Shown here in pieces: positions 55,718 through 62,092 of a DNA stretch of 64,000 nucleotides. Origin of the DNA: Mesoaciditoga sp. (GTDB taxonomy: Bacteria > Thermotogota > Thermotogae > Mesoaciditogales > Mesoaciditogaceae). The notes beneath the pieces were generated by a model that was not told the DNA's origin, made no database searches, and was given only the letters and a program-made list of their open reading frames with translations. Every line of letters starts with the position of its first letter. Position 1 is the first letter of the stretch. The DNA is taken from NCBI GenBank assembly GCA_015491995.1, contig WGFY01000043.1, forward strand, positions 1 to 64,000. The letters are read 5' to 3'. The position numbers were made by a program, and so were the translations under genes.

Positions 55718-57134
55718 GATATTAAAATCTGCCGAACAAGAAGCTCAGAAAACTAAAAAAGAAATGGTTCTCGATGCCAAGCAAGAAATAGCATCAATGA
55801 GAAATGATTTCAATAGGGAAATGCAAAAGCAAAGAAATGAGCTTAAGCAATTTGAAGAACGTTTGAATAAACGTGAAGAGGCTTTTACCAAAAGAGAAGA
55901 AGTTTTTGCAAGAAAAGAAGATAAGTTTGAAGAGATGAAAGAGGAAATTGAAAGGAAAAAAGAAGAAATCGAAGAAACTTTGAAGAGTCAAAAAGAAAAG
56001 TTACAAAATATATCCGGATTGAGCACTCAAGAGGCCAGGGAATTGGTTTTGAAATCGACGAAGGAAGATATGGAAAGGAATCTTGCAAAAATGTACTCTC
56101 AAATGAAAGAGAGGTACGAGGAAGAAGCGGAAGAAAACGCAAAATGGTTGATGTCAACGGCAATACAAAGATATGCGAGTAGTTACATCAACGAAATTGC
56201 CGTTTCTTCTGTTGAACTTCCAAATGATGATATGAAGGGAAGGATTATAGGACGAGAGGGTAGAAACATTCGCGCTTTTGAAAATTTAACCGGTGTTGAT
56301 CTGATCATAGATGATACGCCTGAAACTGTTGTTCTGTCGTCTTTTAACCCACTACGCAGAGAGATAGCCAGAATGACTCTCGAGAGATTGATAATCGATG
56401 GTAGAATACACCCCGCAATGATCGAAGAGATTTATGAGAAATCGAAAAAAGAAGTGGAAAAACTGGTACGTGACGAGGGGAAAAAAGCAATATTAACTGT
56501 TGGGATTTCCACAATGCACCAAGAACTTCTCAAATTGCTTGGAAGATTGAAATTCCGTACAAGCTTTGGGCAAAACGTACTTCATCACTCGATAGAAGTG
56601 GCACAAATAGCTGCCATGATGGCGGAAGAATTGGGTTTGAATGTTGAAAAGGTGAAGCGCGGTGCGTTGCTTCATGACATAGGTAAGGCCGTTGATCACG
56701 AGGTTCAGGGGACGCATGCGATTATAGGAGGAGAGCTGGCAAGACGCTATCGTGAAAAAAATATGGTTGTCAACATGATACAAGCTCATCACGAAGAGGT
56801 GGCATTCGAAAGCCCAGAGGCTGTCTTGATCTCAGCTGCTGATGCCATAAGTGCTGCGAGGCCTGGAGCACGTCGGGAGAGTTTGGATATATACATGAAA
56901 AGGCTTCAAAAACTTGAAGAAATAGCCACAAACCATAAATACGTTACCAAAGCGTATGCCATACAGGCCGGACGTGAAATAAGAGTTATAGTTGAACCTG
57001 ATAAGGTAGATGACGAAATGGCTGATAAGATGTCTTACGATATAGCGCGCAAAATAGAAGAGACCATGGAATACCCCGGACAGCTTAAAGTTGTGGTAAT
57101 CAGGGAAAAAAGAAGCATAGAGTACGCAAAGTGA
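55590..57134 (+). CDS. rny: Ribonuclease Y
   Basis: A 514-residue membrane-anchored endoribonuclease that initiates mRNA decay. One N-terminal helix ([19 protein letters not shown]), a long coiled coil rich in Glu and Lys (about 28-200), a KH RNA-binding domain (GRIIGREGRNIRAFENLTG region, seen as IIGREGRNIRA) and an HD domain with ALLHDIGKAVDHE. Length is typical. ATG at 55590 follows GGAGGTGTGACG; the longer frame overlaps recX. The stop overlaps the GTG of glpP. Confidence 0.96.
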   Translation: MNQELMLVLIFVPIAILAVIMGYHMGKTKVLNEQKRAKESANEILKSAEQEAQKTKKEMVLDAKQEIASMRNDFNREMQKQRNELKQFEERLNKREEAFTKREEVFARKEDKFEEMKEEIERKKEEIEETLKSQKEKLQNISGLSTQEARELVLKSTKEDMERNLAKMYSQMKERYEEEAEENAKWLMSTAIQRYASSYINEIAVSSVELPNDDMKGRIIGREGRNIRAFENLTGVDLIIDDTPETVVLSSFNPLRREIARMTLERLIIDGRIHPAMIEEIYEKSKKEVEKLVRDEGKKAILTVGISTMHQELLKLLGRLKFRTSFGQNVLHHSIEVAQIAAMMAEELGLNVEKVKRGALLHDIGKAVDHEVQGTHAIIGGELARRYREKNMVVNMIQAHHEEVAFESPEAVLISAADAISAARPGARRESLDIYMKRLQKLEEIATNHKYVTKAYAIQAGREIRVIVEPDKVDDEMADKMSYDIARKIEETMEYPGQLKVVVIREKRSIEYAK

Positions 57135-57676
57135 GAAAAAAAGAGATAATAGCCGCAATTTGGCAAGATACGCATGTAGAGGATATTCCTCAAGAGTGTA
57201 CGACGATTTTTTTATTGGGCACCACGATCTCCAATGTTGGAGATCGTGTGCGCCTTTTTTCATCCAAAGAGGTGTGGGTAGATATAGATTTTGTGGAAGG
57301 GCTTGAAAAAAATAGGGCAGGTGTAAAATTTTTAAAAGACAAGGGGACTTATGGCATAATAACGACAAAGCTTTCACTGCTTAACGAATGTGAAAAAATT
57401 GGAATGCCTGTTATTTTAAGATTTTTTGCCCTTGATTCTCATGCGGTTAGAAGTGGTCTGCGCCACTTGATGCATATTAAACGCATAGAGGTATTGCCTG
57501 CAGACGTGCTACCAAAACTCGTGGATACTTTTAAGAGTATAAACCCCAAGGTGTTCATAATAGCGGCCGGGCTTATTTCTTCAGCGGACGAGGTTAGAAC
57601 ACTTTTTAAAGAAGGCGTTGATGCGGTGTCAATTGGTGGTGAAATCAAAAAAGTTTGGAAAGAATACTATCATTGA
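57131..57676 (+). CDS. glpP: GlpP-family glycerol-3-phosphate responsive antiterminator
   Basis: A 181-residue TIM-barrel-like protein. In Bacillus, GlpP binds glycerol 3-phosphate and the leader RNA of glpD/glpFK to prevent termination. Family features: an IFLLGTTISNVG beginning, VWVDIDFVEGL, GTYGIITTKLSLL, and a late PKVFIIAAGLISSADEV and GVDAVSIGGEIKKVW. GTG start overlaps the rny stop. A strong terminator-like hairpin lies inside its own coding region (57218-57260). Target genes are not in this window. Confidence 0.88.
   Translation: MRKKEIIAAIWQDTHVEDIPQECTTIFLLGTTISNVGDRVRLFSSKEVWVDIDFVEGLEKNRAGVKFLKDKGTYGIITTKLSLLNECEKIGMPVILRFFALDSHAVRSGLRHLMHIKRIEVLPADVLPKLVDTFKSINPKVFIIAAGLISSADEVRTLFKEGVDAVSIGGEIKKVWKEYYH
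57218..57260 (+). terminator. Terminator-like hairpin within glpP
   Basis: CACGATCTCCAA (57223-57234) pairs perfectly with TTGGAGATCGTG (57237-57248). Outer GGC/GCC pairs extend the stem after a small internal loop, and six T residues follow at 57255-57260. It sits about 30 codons into glpP. It has every mark of an intrinsic terminator, and could end part of the recA-rny transcript or be a regulatory site for glpP. Confidence 0.6.
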
Positions 57677-57770: not shown

Positions 57771-57923
57771 ATGAGCAAGTTCAAGAAAGTTTTAAACAAT
57801 CCACGAATTGTGTCCCAATTTGAATTGCTGAAGATGATGAGGATGAACAAAAAAGAAGCAAATGTTGAATTTGTTCGACGTTCTCTCGAAGGATATGGAG
57901 CACAAAGGGAATCGAAGAAGTGA
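57771..57923 (+). CDS. Small basic protein of 50 residues, unknown
   Basis: A short ORF starting ATG with AAGGTG seven bases upstream and ending TGA. The product (SKFKKVLNNPRIVSQFELL at the start, FVRRSLEGYGAQRESKK at the end) is highly basic and probably helical, with no cysteine, signal or membrane segment. I do not recognise it. The degenerate ATPase gene starts six bases after its stop, so they are likely coexpressed. The strong binding site and tight spacing support it as a real gene. Bases 57677-57770 upstream hold only a possible -10 (TATACT, 57729-57734). Confidence 0.65.
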   Translation: MSKFKKVLNNPRIVSQFELLKMMRMNKKEANVEFVRRSLEGYGAQRESKK

Positions 57924-57929
57924 ATTGTC

Positions 57930-58649
57930 ATGGAAATTCCACTACTTGAATTTAAAAACTTCTCTTTATGGACAGAAAAAAGAAAGTTCGTCGACGATTT
58001 TTCTTTAAGCGTGAAAAAAGGAAATGTGATTTTGATATATGGACCAAGGGATTCTGGAAAATCTGCTATTTTAAGAAGTACTGTACATTTGAATGAAGAG
58101 CTTTTCGAATCTATCAACAGTGGAGGGAATATATTCTTCAAAGGAAAAGATATAAGCAATTGGGATAGAAAGGAACTGAGAAAGAAAATTTCTTACGTTG
58201 ACACTTCCTTCATTGAAAGTCTTTCTTCTTTAACCGTTGACCGAATAATCAGACTTGTTAAGGGTAACAACGTCGATCTTTATTACGATTCCATGATAGA
58301 ACTTCTCAAAAAATTGGGGATCTTGGATCTTTTAAAGAAAGGACTTCATACACGTGTGGGGGATCTTCATGGAAATATAAGAGTGCTGTTTCTCCTTTTT
58401 ATGGCCTTGCTAAGAGAGCCCGAAATCGTGGCCCTTGATTGTATCGTAGATCATCTTGATGATGATGCTGCTTTGAAAGTTCAAAATGTTGTGCTATCAT
58501 TAAAGGAAAAATACACTTTGATACTGGCCACTAGAAGATTACCTAATTTTCTCGCCATAGCCGATCGGATAATAGTGCTTCGAAATGGGAAAACCCAGTT
58601 TTCTGGGAGCAAGAAGGAGATGATATTGACTTTCAGCGAGGAGGAATAA
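57930..58649 (+). CDS. Degenerate ABC-type ATPase (PstB-like), catalytic motifs lost
   Basis: A 239-residue ABC ATP-binding-domain protein closest in layout to PstB. Walker A is present (GPRDSGKS, 38-45) and overall length and order fit. But the Q-loop Gln is absent (SYVDTSF), the signature reads DLHGNIR (146-151) instead of LSGGQ, Walker B is IVALDC with Cys171 replacing the catalytic Glu, and the switch His is Arg202 (LATRRLPNF). It may bind but should not hydrolyse ATP normally. The frame is fully open, so it looks maintained, perhaps as a regulatory or structural protein. No permease gene is near. Neighbours: the 50-residue ORF and a PfkB kinase. Confidence 0.85.
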   Translation: MEIPLLEFKNFSLWTEKRKFVDDFSLSVKKGNVILIYGPRDSGKSAILRSTVHLNEELFESINSGGNIFFKGKDISNWDRKELRKKISYVDTSFIESLSSLTVDRIIRLVKGNNVDLYYDSMIELLKKLGILDLLKKGLHTRVGDLHGNIRVLFLLFMALLREPEIVALDCIVDHLDDDAALKVQNVVLSLKEKYTLILATRRLPNFLAIADRIIVLRNGKTQFSGSKKEMILTFSEEE

Positions 58650-58652
58650 AAA

Positions 58653-59612
58653 ATGGATGTTTTAACCGTTACCCTTAATCCTGCTCTTGATAGGCTCATA
58701 GAGATTGATAATCTCGAAATAGGTACAATTCATCGTATATTTGAAAGCGAAAAAACTCATATTTCTCCTGGCGGAAAAGGAATAAACGTTTCGCTGTATT
58801 TGGATCAATTGGGAATAGAATCCACGGCACTTGGCATACTCGGTGGGTTGACTGGAAGGATGTTTCAAGTAAGGATGAAAAGGGACTTTGACAACAGGAT
58901 ATTCACCAGTTTTCTCTACGTAAAAGATGAGACGAGGGAAAATTTGACGTTGGTTGACAGAAAATCAAAAACAATAACAGCGCTCAACCTTCCTGGTCCA
59001 AAAGTTGATCAAAGGAGCTTTGAACTCTTCATGAAAAAATATGTGGCGTTGCTTTCAAGGGTGAAAATCTGTGAGATAGGTGGCACAATTCCAAGTGGGA
59101 TTTCCCTTGAAGTGTATAACAAAATGGTTAATATGGCTAAAAAAGCTAATGTGATGACGATCGTAAATGCTCATGGAGAACCGTTATCCCATGCGATAGA
59201 GGCGGGACCAGACATCGTCAAGCCAGATATACGGGGTTCAAAAGTGGTGTTAGGGAAAACTCTTAACACGCTTGATGATTATGTATCGTCTGCGAAGGAG
59301 ATAATAGACAAAGGCGCTCGGATGGTGATATATTCGTTTGAGGTTAAAAATGATTTGGTTGTAACTCCTGAATGGACATATCTTTTTAAGATGAAAGGTG
59401 AAATAAAGCGGATCAACCTTATGGGCACGGGTGATGCTTACATCGCAGGCTTGATTTACGGGATTTCGAATGGAAAAGATTTTTTTGAAAGTGTAAGATA
59501 TGGTATGGCCGCTGCAATTGCAGATGAATTGACAGAAGAAAAAAATATTGGTGGCATAGATGGAATGAATGCTGCGATGAAGCTCATAGAGATGGAGCGT
59601 GTGTTGTCATGA
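58653..59612 (+). CDS. 1-phosphofructokinase-family (PfkB) sugar kinase
   Basis: A 319-residue kinase of the PfkB family, subgroup of 1-phosphofructokinase, tagatose-6-phosphate kinase and Pfk-2. It begins TLNPALDRLIEID, followed by the substrate motif SPGGKGINVSLYLDQLG, and ends with the anion-hole and catalytic aspartate in LMGTGDAYIAGL. It phosphorylates a sugar phosphate, probably fructose 1-phosphate or fructose 6-phosphate. GAGGAGG precedes the ATG. It is three bases after the degenerate ATPase and overlaps the CBS gene by four. Confidence 0.88.
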   Translation: MDVLTVTLNPALDRLIEIDNLEIGTIHRIFESEKTHISPGGKGINVSLYLDQLGIESTALGILGGLTGRMFQVRMKRDFDNRIFTSFLYVKDETRENLTLVDRKSKTITALNLPGPKVDQRSFELFMKKYVALLSRVKICEIGGTIPSGISLEVYNKMVNMAKKANVMTIVNAHGEPLSHAIEAGPDIVKPDIRGSKVVLGKTLNTLDDYVSSAKEIIDKGARMVIYSFEVKNDLVVTPEWTYLFKMKGEIKRINLMGTGDAYIAGLIYGISNGKDFFESVRYGMAAAIADELTEEKNIGGIDGMNAAMKLIEMERVLS

Positions 59613-60046
59613 AGGTTAAGGATTTCATGGAAAGAGATGTCACGGCTGTATTTTCAGATGAAACTGTTGAAGAATTCATTCATGCATGTGTTCATCAATT
59701 TCGTTCGGGACTCCCCGTGGTGGATAGCGAAATGCGTGTCGTTGGCGTGATGACAGAAAGCGATGTCATGCATGCGATAATTCCAAGTTATATGGAAATG
59801 CTGCACTCTACTTCTTTCATTCCAGACACGAATATCACGAAGAAACGTTTGGAAGAGATAAAAAATAAACATATATCTCAATATATGAGGGAAAATGTTG
59901 AAGCCTTGAAAACAACCGATACGCTTTTAAGCGCTGCCACTTTGATAATAAAAAAAAGCCATAGATTCTTGCCAGTCGTGGACGAAGATGGACATTTGGC
60001 GGGTATAGTAACTCGTGCGCTCATTTTGGAGGCGCTCCTGATTTGA
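59609..60046 (+). CDS. CBS-pair protein
   Basis: A 145-residue protein made of two CBS repeats (about 1-55 and 85-145), separated by a linker. Repeat one: KVKDFMERDVTAVFSDETV and VVDSEMRVVGVMTESDVM. Repeat two: ISQYMRENVEALKTTDTL and VVDEDGHLAGIVTRALIL. Such free-standing CBS pairs bind adenine nucleotides and regulate partners. The target may be the neighbouring kinase, given the overlapping genes; that is inference. It overlaps mtaB by four bases. Confidence 0.9.
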   Translation: MKVKDFMERDVTAVFSDETVEEFIHACVHQFRSGLPVVDSEMRVVGVMTESDVMHAIIPSYMEMLHSTSFIPDTNITKKRLEEIKNKHISQYMRENVEALKTTDTLLSAATLIIKKSHRFLPVVDEDGHLAGIVTRALILEALLI

Positions 60047-61275
60047 AATATCATATACACACATTAGGATGTAAATTCAATCAATATGAAAGCGCCAAGA
60101 TCGATGAAATTTTTAGGGAAAATGGTCATGTAAACTCCAACGCAAAAGATGCTGACATCGTGATCGTGAACAGTTGTGCCGTAACTAAAGAAGCTTCAAG
60201 GAAATCGCTTCAGATAGCCAGGCATTTTAAAAAAATAAATCCAAATTCCCAAATAATTTTCACAGGTTGTGCCGTTCATGATAGAGATATCAAGGGTTTT
60301 GACTTGGTCATTGGAAACGGCGAGAAATTAAGAATGCTTGATTTTCTTGATAAAAATGGAGAATTTCTCAATTCATCCTATTTCCTTGAAGATGACTTGA
60401 ATTACTCTGTAAAAGAAATTCCAAATCATACACGTGCTTTCTTAAGTATAGAAAATGGTTGTAATTGGGGATGTGCTTACTGTGCGATACCTCATTTTCG
60501 TGGTACAAAAATACGCTCAAAATCTTCAAAAATTGTCACAGAAGAAACACGTCTTATGGTGAAAAATGGTGTTAAAGAAATTGTGATCACCGGAATAAAC
60601 ATCGCTTTGTACGACGATGAGGGAACAGATCTTCATAATTTGATAGGTGAGATTCTCAAAGTAAACGGAGATTTCAGATTAAGGCTCGGCTCAATAGACC
60701 CTGTTAGCTTGAGGAAGTTGGTGGATCTCTTTGAAGATTCAAAGCTTTGCAATCATGCGCATATGTCATTGCAAAGTGGCTCGGATGCCACCCTGAAAAG
60801 GATGAGAAGAATGTACACTTCGAAGGATATAACAGATTGTGTTAAAATCCTTCGGAAAAGTGATGATTTGTTTGCCTTTTCGGTCGATGTGATAGTTGGT
60901 TTTCCAGGTGAAACGGAAGAAGAATTTCGACAGACGTATGAAATTCTTAAAGAAATAGGTGCTTCGAGAATACATGTTTTTCCGTTTTCAGCACGTCCCC
61001 ATACCGTAGCCGCATCGATGTCAAATCAAGTGGAAAATGCTGTCAAAATTGAGAGAGCAAGGAGATTGAGAAAATTATCCGACCAACTTTCAAGTGATTA
61101 TTTTAGAAAGAGCGAGAATGTGAACCGTAGGGTATTAATAGAACAAGTTGAAAATGGAATCTCAGAAGGTTTAGATCAATATTATGTACGCCACAAAATT
61201 TGTCGTGTGGCCACGGTAGGCGAGTTTTTTGAGTACAAAAGTGAGGGGGTCGTTGGTAATGAAAATATACTTTAA
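60043..61275 (+). CDS. mtaB: tRNA t6A37 methylthiotransferase MtaB
   Basis: A 410-residue radical-SAM methylthiotransferase converting t6A to ms2t6A at position 37 of tRNAs. First motif TLGCKFNQYES is the MtaB/e-MtaB form; other cluster residues are VNSCAVT and FTGCAVHD. The radical SAM motif is ENGCNWGCAYCAIP. A TRAM domain is expected at the end (from about 350). TTG start overlaps the CBS gene. It differs from RimO at 51.7 kb by the first motif. Confidence 0.92.
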   Translation: MKYHIHTLGCKFNQYESAKIDEIFRENGHVNSNAKDADIVIVNSCAVTKEASRKSLQIARHFKKINPNSQIIFTGCAVHDRDIKGFDLVIGNGEKLRMLDFLDKNGEFLNSSYFLEDDLNYSVKEIPNHTRAFLSIENGCNWGCAYCAIPHFRGTKIRSKSSKIVTEETRLMVKNGVKEIVITGINIALYDDEGTDLHNLIGEILKVNGDFRLRLGSIDPVSLRKLVDLFEDSKLCNHAHMSLQSGSDATLKRMRRMYTSKDITDCVKILRKSDDLFAFSVDVIVGFPGETEEEFRQTYEILKEIGASRIHVFPFSARPHTVAASMSNQVENAVKIERARRLRKLSDQLSSDYFRKSENVNRRVLIEQVENGISEGLDQYYVRHKICRVATVGEFFEYKSEGVVGNENIL

Positions 61276-62092
61276 CGGTCAGTGGATGGATGAAGCGTAT
61301 GTAAGTGCTACCGATAGGGCTTTTATGTATGGGGAGGGAGTGTACGAGAGCTTGAGGACGTACAACAAAAAACTCTTCGCCCCTCACCAGCATTACGAAA
61401 GACTTAAACGCTCACTTGAAATATTGGCATTGCCTGTTGAATTGAGTTTTTCGAGATTTGAAAAAATCATTTACGATGGTCTCAAAGATGTTGAAAAAGA
61501 TTGCACGATAAGGGTTATGGTCAGCAGTGGTGATGAAGATGAACCAGATAACCCTAACCTAATCGTATACATAATGGAGCTTCAAGCTCCCAATGAGGAT
61601 CTTTACACTTACGGTGTGAATGTAGGCATATCTCATTTGCGTGCAATTCCATCCGTTTCCGTGCCATCAATTCTAAAAACCTCATCTCATGCTTACTTAA
61701 GGATAGCTCGACGTGAAAAGAAAGAATTTTACGAAGTTATATTTTTGAGTTACGAAGGATTTGTGGCAGAGGGAAGTATGAGTAACATCTTCTTGATAGA
61801 AGATGACACAATTGTGACACCTTCAATTGAGACTGGAATACTTGATGGTGTGACACGAAATGTCGTCATAAAACTTGCACGTTCTTTTGGAATGCCTGTG
61901 GAAGAAAGATTTATCAACGTGGATGAGCTGTTTAACTGCTCTGAGATCTTTCTTACAAGGACCAGTGCTGAGATAATACCTGTAAGAAAGATAGAAAGTA
62001 GGGTGCTTTTTGAAAATGAGCCAAATGGTTTAACAACGCTTCTTGCGGAGAATTTCAAATCCTACATTCTTAACGAACCATCATTTTGGTAA
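61259..62092 (+). CDS. Class IV aminotransferase (BCAT/D-amino-acid type)
   Basis: A 277-residue fold-type IV PLP enzyme. It starts MKIYFNGQWMDEAYVSATDRAFMYGEGVYESLRTY-like, seen as DRAFMYGEGVYESLRTY, and the PLP lysine is expected at LKTSSHAYLRIARR; later motifs EGSMSNIFLI and TPSIETGILDGVTR fit the family. It could be a branched-chain or D-alanine aminotransferase or an aminodeoxychorismate lyase; sequence alone does not decide. ATG at 61259 lies within the mtaB end (17-base overlap), preceded by GAGGGGG. Confidence 0.87.
   Translation: MKIYFNGQWMDEAYVSATDRAFMYGEGVYESLRTYNKKLFAPHQHYERLKRSLEILALPVELSFSRFEKIIYDGLKDVEKDCTIRVMVSSGDEDEPDNPNLIVYIMELQAPNEDLYTYGVNVGISHLRAIPSVSVPSILKTSSHAYLRIARREKKEFYEVIFLSYEGFVAEGSMSNIFLIEDDTIVTPSIETGILDGVTRNVVIKLARSFGMPVEERFINVDELFNCSEIFLTRTSAEIIPVRKIESRVLFENEPNGLTTLLAENFKSYILNEPSFW

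Follow-up and report, generated by a model that had tools for sequence, protein, structure and literature searches.

The window, the whole stretch of 64,000 nucleotides from Mesoaciditoga sp. that was analysed, carries a run of closely spaced genes on the forward strand, among them an ATP-binding cassette (ABC) protein with replaced catalytic motifs, which we call the pseudo-ABC ATPase. The genes, and the sites within the pseudo-ABC gene, are as follows.

57771–57923, plus strand: ORF50, a 50-residue basic protein (net charge +8), with an AGGTG ribosome-binding site just upstream
57930–58649, plus strand: pseudo-ABC ATPase, 239 amino acids, ATG start, frame intact
58041–58064, plus strand: Walker A, residues 38–45 (G-P-R-D-S-G-K-S), with Gly38, Gly43, Lys44 and Ser45 kept
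58194–58211, plus strand: former Q-loop, residues 89–94 (Y-V-D-T-S-F), Gln absent
58365–58379, plus strand: former signature motif, residues 146–150 (L-H-G-N-I), LSGGQ replaced by LHGNI, a motif that the family does not conserve
58425–58463, plus strand: Walker B and rebuilt D-loop, residues 166–178 (I-V-A-L-D-C-I-V-D-H-L-D-D)
58527–58535, plus strand: former H-loop, residues 200–202 (A-T-R), switch His replaced by Arg202
58653–59612, plus strand: PfkB-family sugar kinase of the 1-PFK subfamily, the usual yet separable neighbour of the pseudo-ABC
59609–60046, plus strand: two-CBS protein, strictly paired with PfkB and separable from the pseudo-ABC
60043–61275, plus strand: MtaB-like radical-SAM protein, the next operon gene, named from sequence
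61229–62092, plus strand: branched-chain-aminotransferase-like protein, the conserved last gene of the shared order, likewise named from sequence

The 50-residue basic ORF, the PfkB kinase and the CBS protein that a first-pass annotation had placed in an operon with the ABC gene are present as it described them. Six bases separate ORF50 from the pseudo-ABC and three separate the latter from PfkB, followed by 4-base overlaps; the listed TTG start of the aminotransferase-like gene may lie upstream of its true start. Scans around the operon for promoters gave matches at chance level and found no terminator. A glycerol-3-phosphate antiterminator (G3P_antiterm, window 57131–57676, 120 bits) was detected between a gene read as rny and ORF50, a position that it occupies only in some genomes of the window's family.

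The protein is a member of the ABC superfamily, scoring 48.8 bits against Pfam ABC_tran (PF00005; gathering cut-off 25), and the top Foldseek matches of its model were ABC nucleotide-binding domains (NBDs; E ~1e-19). The elements of the Walker A pattern GxxxxGK[ST] and the Walker B aspartate are present in the window copy (G38, K44, S45 and D170). Against a PstB-like paralogue (L117) as the normal reference, the region of the Q-loop Gln reads Y-x-[D/E]-[T/P], Arg40 of Walker A stands where the paralogue has Ser, the catalytic Glu171 is replaced by Cys171 and SALDP of the D-loop by DHLDD; the A-loop aromatic is likewise not conserved. All four hallmarks of an active ATPase (LSGGQ, the Q-loop Gln, the catalytic Glu and the switch His) were replaced in 60 of 60 aligned orthologues. 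The alignment with the paralogue therefore bears out the earlier claim that these four are replaced in an intact frame; the accompanying statement that only Walker A survives was too strong, because Asp170 of Walker B and Asp177 of the D-loop are also kept.

Orthologues of the pseudo-ABC were found in 90 of 103 Thermotogota genomes, one copy per genome; this count comprises 89 single-copy genomes at E<=1e-30 in a family profile search, in which the next paralogue scored 8e-31, and one genome (G020) with a decayed copy. Among the carriers is G093, a genome that we take to be Thermotoga maritima. A pattern scan that took a single genome from each of 84,980 species found no true relative beyond Thermotogota; three weak matches outside the phylum proved to be ordinary ABC proteins with LSGGQ.

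Residue counts were taken from an alignment of 60 orthologues from eight families, in which the REPLACEMENTS form the conserved part. Lys44, Tyr89, Asp170, Asp174, Asp177 and Arg202 were present in all 60, as was Ser or Thr at position 45, and Gly43 was found in 59. Such uniformity across eight families is not a matter of chance. Residue 91 was always acidic (43 Asp, 17 Glu), and His175 and Asp178 were each conserved in 59 sequences (98%) and Arg40 of the P-loop in 57 (95%). At position 171 we found Cys in 35, Ser in 14, Asn in 9, Gly in 2 and Glu in none, and the signature motif varied freely. Arg40, Tyr89, Asp174-His175-x-Asp177-Asp178 and Arg202 rank among the most conserved columns of the alignment, and the replaced sites map to positions that make the nucleotide and dimer interface in ABC proteins. 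Between close relatives, dN/dS of the pseudo-ABC was 0.03–0.10, within the range of PfkB and CBS. Judged from these sequences, the pattern is one of constraint for a new function and not of decay: the replaced motifs are conserved phylum-wide and under strong purifying selection, which gives good support to a retained non-ATPase role, as the first-pass annotation had supposed from motif loss in an open frame. The homologue search that it had proposed returned the same replaced sites in every aligned orthologue, and no orthologue with normal motifs, which it would have taken as the sign of a pseudogene, was found in the same context. In one orthologue (L078, genome G041) Arg40 is replaced by Tyr and His175 by Lys; this is the sole case of Lys175 and one of three without Arg40, a possible sign, from a single sequence, that the two sites are coupled.

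The constant neighbour of the pseudo-ABC is ORF50. An ORF50 orthologue lies directly upstream at 59 of 60 loci, the 60th being at a contig edge. The family comprises proteins of 47–71 amino acids in which an S-Q-[YIF]-[DE] core precedes a helix; 56 of 58 orthologues are basic, and dN/dS is about 0.05–0.17. Across the 103 genomes, 89 carry both genes, one the pseudo-ABC only, none ORF50 only and 13 neither (Fisher p = 1e-15, in a test that ignores relatedness). On a tree of PfkB and CBS the genomes without the pseudo-ABC fall into three clades, with three changes forced by well-supported branches, and ORF50 is missing in each; it has been lost together with the pseudo-ABC in at least three clades. 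The two very probably make up a unit that has not been described before and does not serve transport. Neighbour conservation and joint loss amount to a functional link, not to contact. As a separate observation, G047, an assembly of 640 contigs, lacks the pseudo-ABC, ORF50, PfkB and CBS, all four of which its congeners carry; the joint absence probably reflects contamination or a fault of the assembly.

The genes on the 5' side of ORF50 differ between families, with rny-glpP, radical-SAM genes and an rpoD-like gene among those read by eye, so that the unit appears to begin with ORF50. Searches of the family against Pfam and NCBIfam returned nothing convincing, with scattered weak matches; HTH_16 (PF12645) matched two members out of 35, with a best E of 0.0012, and did not match the window ORF. 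In family f9 (L041, L042, L079–L084 and L113), ORF50 follows genes read by eye as a primase and a primary sigma factor. Together, this context and the HTH_16 matches provide a faint link of ORF50 to transcription. For AlphaFold we used a read-through chain of ORF50 and the pseudo-ABC, which share a frame (TGA read as W), giving a linker of 3 residues. The ABC part was predicted confidently (block means mostly 90–98). With few ORF50 rows, ORF50 reached a pLDDT of about 34–50; with its rows correctly aligned, five of them paired, and the same 3-residue linker, it reached a moderate 66–82 or so, at a pTM of 0.78, which falls short of a confident docking of ORF50 on the ABC.

For the PfkB kinase and its operon neighbours, the first-pass annotation had instead raised the possibility of a metabolic control module in which the ABC protein would sense ATP or act as a scaffold. 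The order ABC-PfkB-CBS-MtaB-aminotransferase does recur in seven of the eight families with the pseudo-ABC that were examined (f1, f2, f4, f6, f9, f10 and f11), the spacing in the window is tight, and PfkB and CBS are strictly paired (92 of 92 genomes). However, the presence of the pseudo-ABC is not significantly tied to that of PfkB: 82 genomes have both, 8 the pseudo-ABC only, 10 PfkB only and 3 neither, an association that is not significant (Fisher p = 0.14, again ignoring relatedness). Four genomes of the Athalassotoga group and four Petrotogaceae carry the pseudo-ABC with no PfkB or CBS match above the cut-offs used, ten genomes keep PfkB and CBS with no pseudo-ABC, and in the remaining Petrotogaceae the ORF50-ABC and PfkB-CBS pairs occupy separate loci, ORF50 staying with the pseudo-ABC and away from PfkB. 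A dedicated partnership with PfkB or CBS is therefore not supported and we consider it unlikely; what stands of the proposed module is the recurring gene order, but the inseparable partner is ORF50, which had been listed only in passing.

PfkB and the two-CBS protein form a pair of their own, their profiles matching the identical 92 of 103 Thermotogota genomes and the genes being adjacent wherever checked; the pair may be a sugar-phosphate kinase under CBS regulation. Among solved structures the window PfkB is closest to PDB 2ajr ('sugar kinase, pfkB family'), and it is this operon neighbour, not the pseudo-ABC itself, that belongs with the 1-phosphofructokinase-like enzymes of the PfkB family (TIGR03168).

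Phosphate and Mg binding in ABC proteins falls to the Walker A Lys and Ser together with the Walker B Asp, and the Glu and His drive hydrolysis. The signature and the D-loop form the dimer sandwich; the roles of the D-loop and of the A-loop are described in PMC7756269. The pseudo-ABC keeps the phosphate and Mg set, and most residues of hydrolysis and of the dimer interface have given way to fixed charged residues. The reading that we put forward, with about even confidence, is that of a Thermotogota-specific cytosolic dimer that binds nucleotide, hydrolyses it barely or not at all, is obligately paired with ORF50 and is neither a transporter motor nor a partner of PfkB and CBS. Normal ATP hydrolysis would have been given up, with the fold, the phosphate-binding loop and the Mg-binding Asp kept, and nucleotide would be bound with very slow turnover or none. 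Dimers would form through a rebuilt interface in which Arg40, Asp174-His175-x-Asp177-Asp178 and Arg202 take the place of the usual ATP-sandwich contacts, and ORF50, a small basic helical protein, may touch the pseudo-ABC as a subunit or effector and relay its nucleotide state as a switch or scaffold.

Given the loss of the A-loop aromatic and the signature, nucleotide could also no longer be bound at all. The protein would then be a nucleotide-independent scaffold joining ORF50 to a client, with the P-loop kept for folding only; the loss of the catalytic Glu and the switch His, and the replacement of the final Gly of Walker A by Ser in one aligned f10 genome (G040), fit such a role. Against it, invariant Lys44, Ser/Thr45 and Asp170 and the near-invariant Gly43 would be unexpected with no phosphate or Mg ligand. 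Moreover, the only copy that lacks Walker A, the decayed orthologue in G020 (L122, 5440–6141, minus strand; 98.6 bits; upstream of PfkB), lacks the D-loop and H-loop features as well. We find this scaffold improbable. In G020, where the ABC gene has decayed, ORF50 is still detected (E 6e-11), a natural stage of late loss.

As to its origin, the best NCBIfam model of the pseudo-ABC was PstB (TIGR00972), at 89.6 bits far below the cut-off of 343.2, whereas PstB from the presumed T. maritima genome scored 418; for each of two models, PstB was also the top fold hit in the PDB (9k3x_C and 9k3s_C). In a tree with the ABC ATPases of that genome and of the window genome, the pseudo-ABC family formed one clade (100/100) on a long stem (1.13), with PstB as the nearest branch. 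Derivation from PstB is likely on these comparisons, not proved, because the fork separating PstB from the rest has a support of only 85/70. Both share R49, N55 and E57 after Walker A, but the pseudo-ABC differs in its replaced Q-loop, signature, Glu, D-loop and His, and no PstA, PstC, PstS or PhoU genes were seen beside it, its neighbours being ORF50, PfkB and CBS or unrelated genes.

Other ABC ATPases that work outside transport, such as UvrA, Rad50, SufC and ABC-F, are soluble, permease-free and have dedicated partners, and they keep the catalytic motifs and ATP hydrolysis; the pseudo-ABC family has lost those motifs. In the degenerate NBDs of heterodimeric exporters (TM287/288, TAP and BmrCD), catalytic residues are likewise replaced and Walker A and the Walker B Asp persist. 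NBDs that hold ATP and do not hydrolyse it are known, including in TM287/288 of Thermotoga (PMC7756269), and these genomes encode many other ABC ATPases, so that the pseudo-ABC might be the degenerate half of a heterodimeric transporter with its partner ATPase and permease encoded elsewhere. However, the exporter NBDs cooperate with transmembrane domains and a second, active NBD or are fused to them, whereas the 239 residues of the pseudo-ABC hold an NBD only, with neither a transmembrane domain nor a permease encoded alongside; no recurring permease gene is adjacent in any lineage examined. The strict pairing is with a soluble protein of about 50 residues, and the signature residues needed to complete the site of a partner have gone too, which makes this reading very improbable. 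That the gene is a pseudogene or a recently decaying copy, as the one decayed orthologue in G020 might suggest, can be dismissed for the window copy on the orthologue alignment and dN/dS (0.03–0.10), with frames intact in essentially all orthologues and identical sites substituted throughout the phylum.

A bolder form of our reading, which we regard as doubtful, is that the phylum has a class of soluble ABC proteins of its own, whose ATP sandwich would be rebuilt round a centre of Arg from the P-loop, Asp-His-x-Asp-Asp from the D-loop and Arg from the H-loop, as a new nucleotide-gated switch or even a new active site, with a 50–60-residue protein as the sole obligate partner. The literature searched for pseudo-ABC proteins yielded degenerate transporter NBDs or unrelated papers only, and does not name TM0826–TM0829, presumably the locus numbers of this unit in T. 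maritima. Since ORF50 has no convincing Pfam or NCBIfam family, annotation would show the pair merely as an 'ABC transporter ATP-binding protein', a label that is probably wrong for the pseudo-ABC. ORF50 and the pseudo-ABC are a core gene pair that carries no functional annotation in an ancient phylum, present even in the genome taken for T. maritima. ABC-fold pseudo-ATPases are known mainly as the silent halves of transporters; a stand-alone, near-universal, single-copy pseudo-ABC with invariant residues at the replaced sites and a fixed micro-protein partner would be a separate use of the ABC fold.
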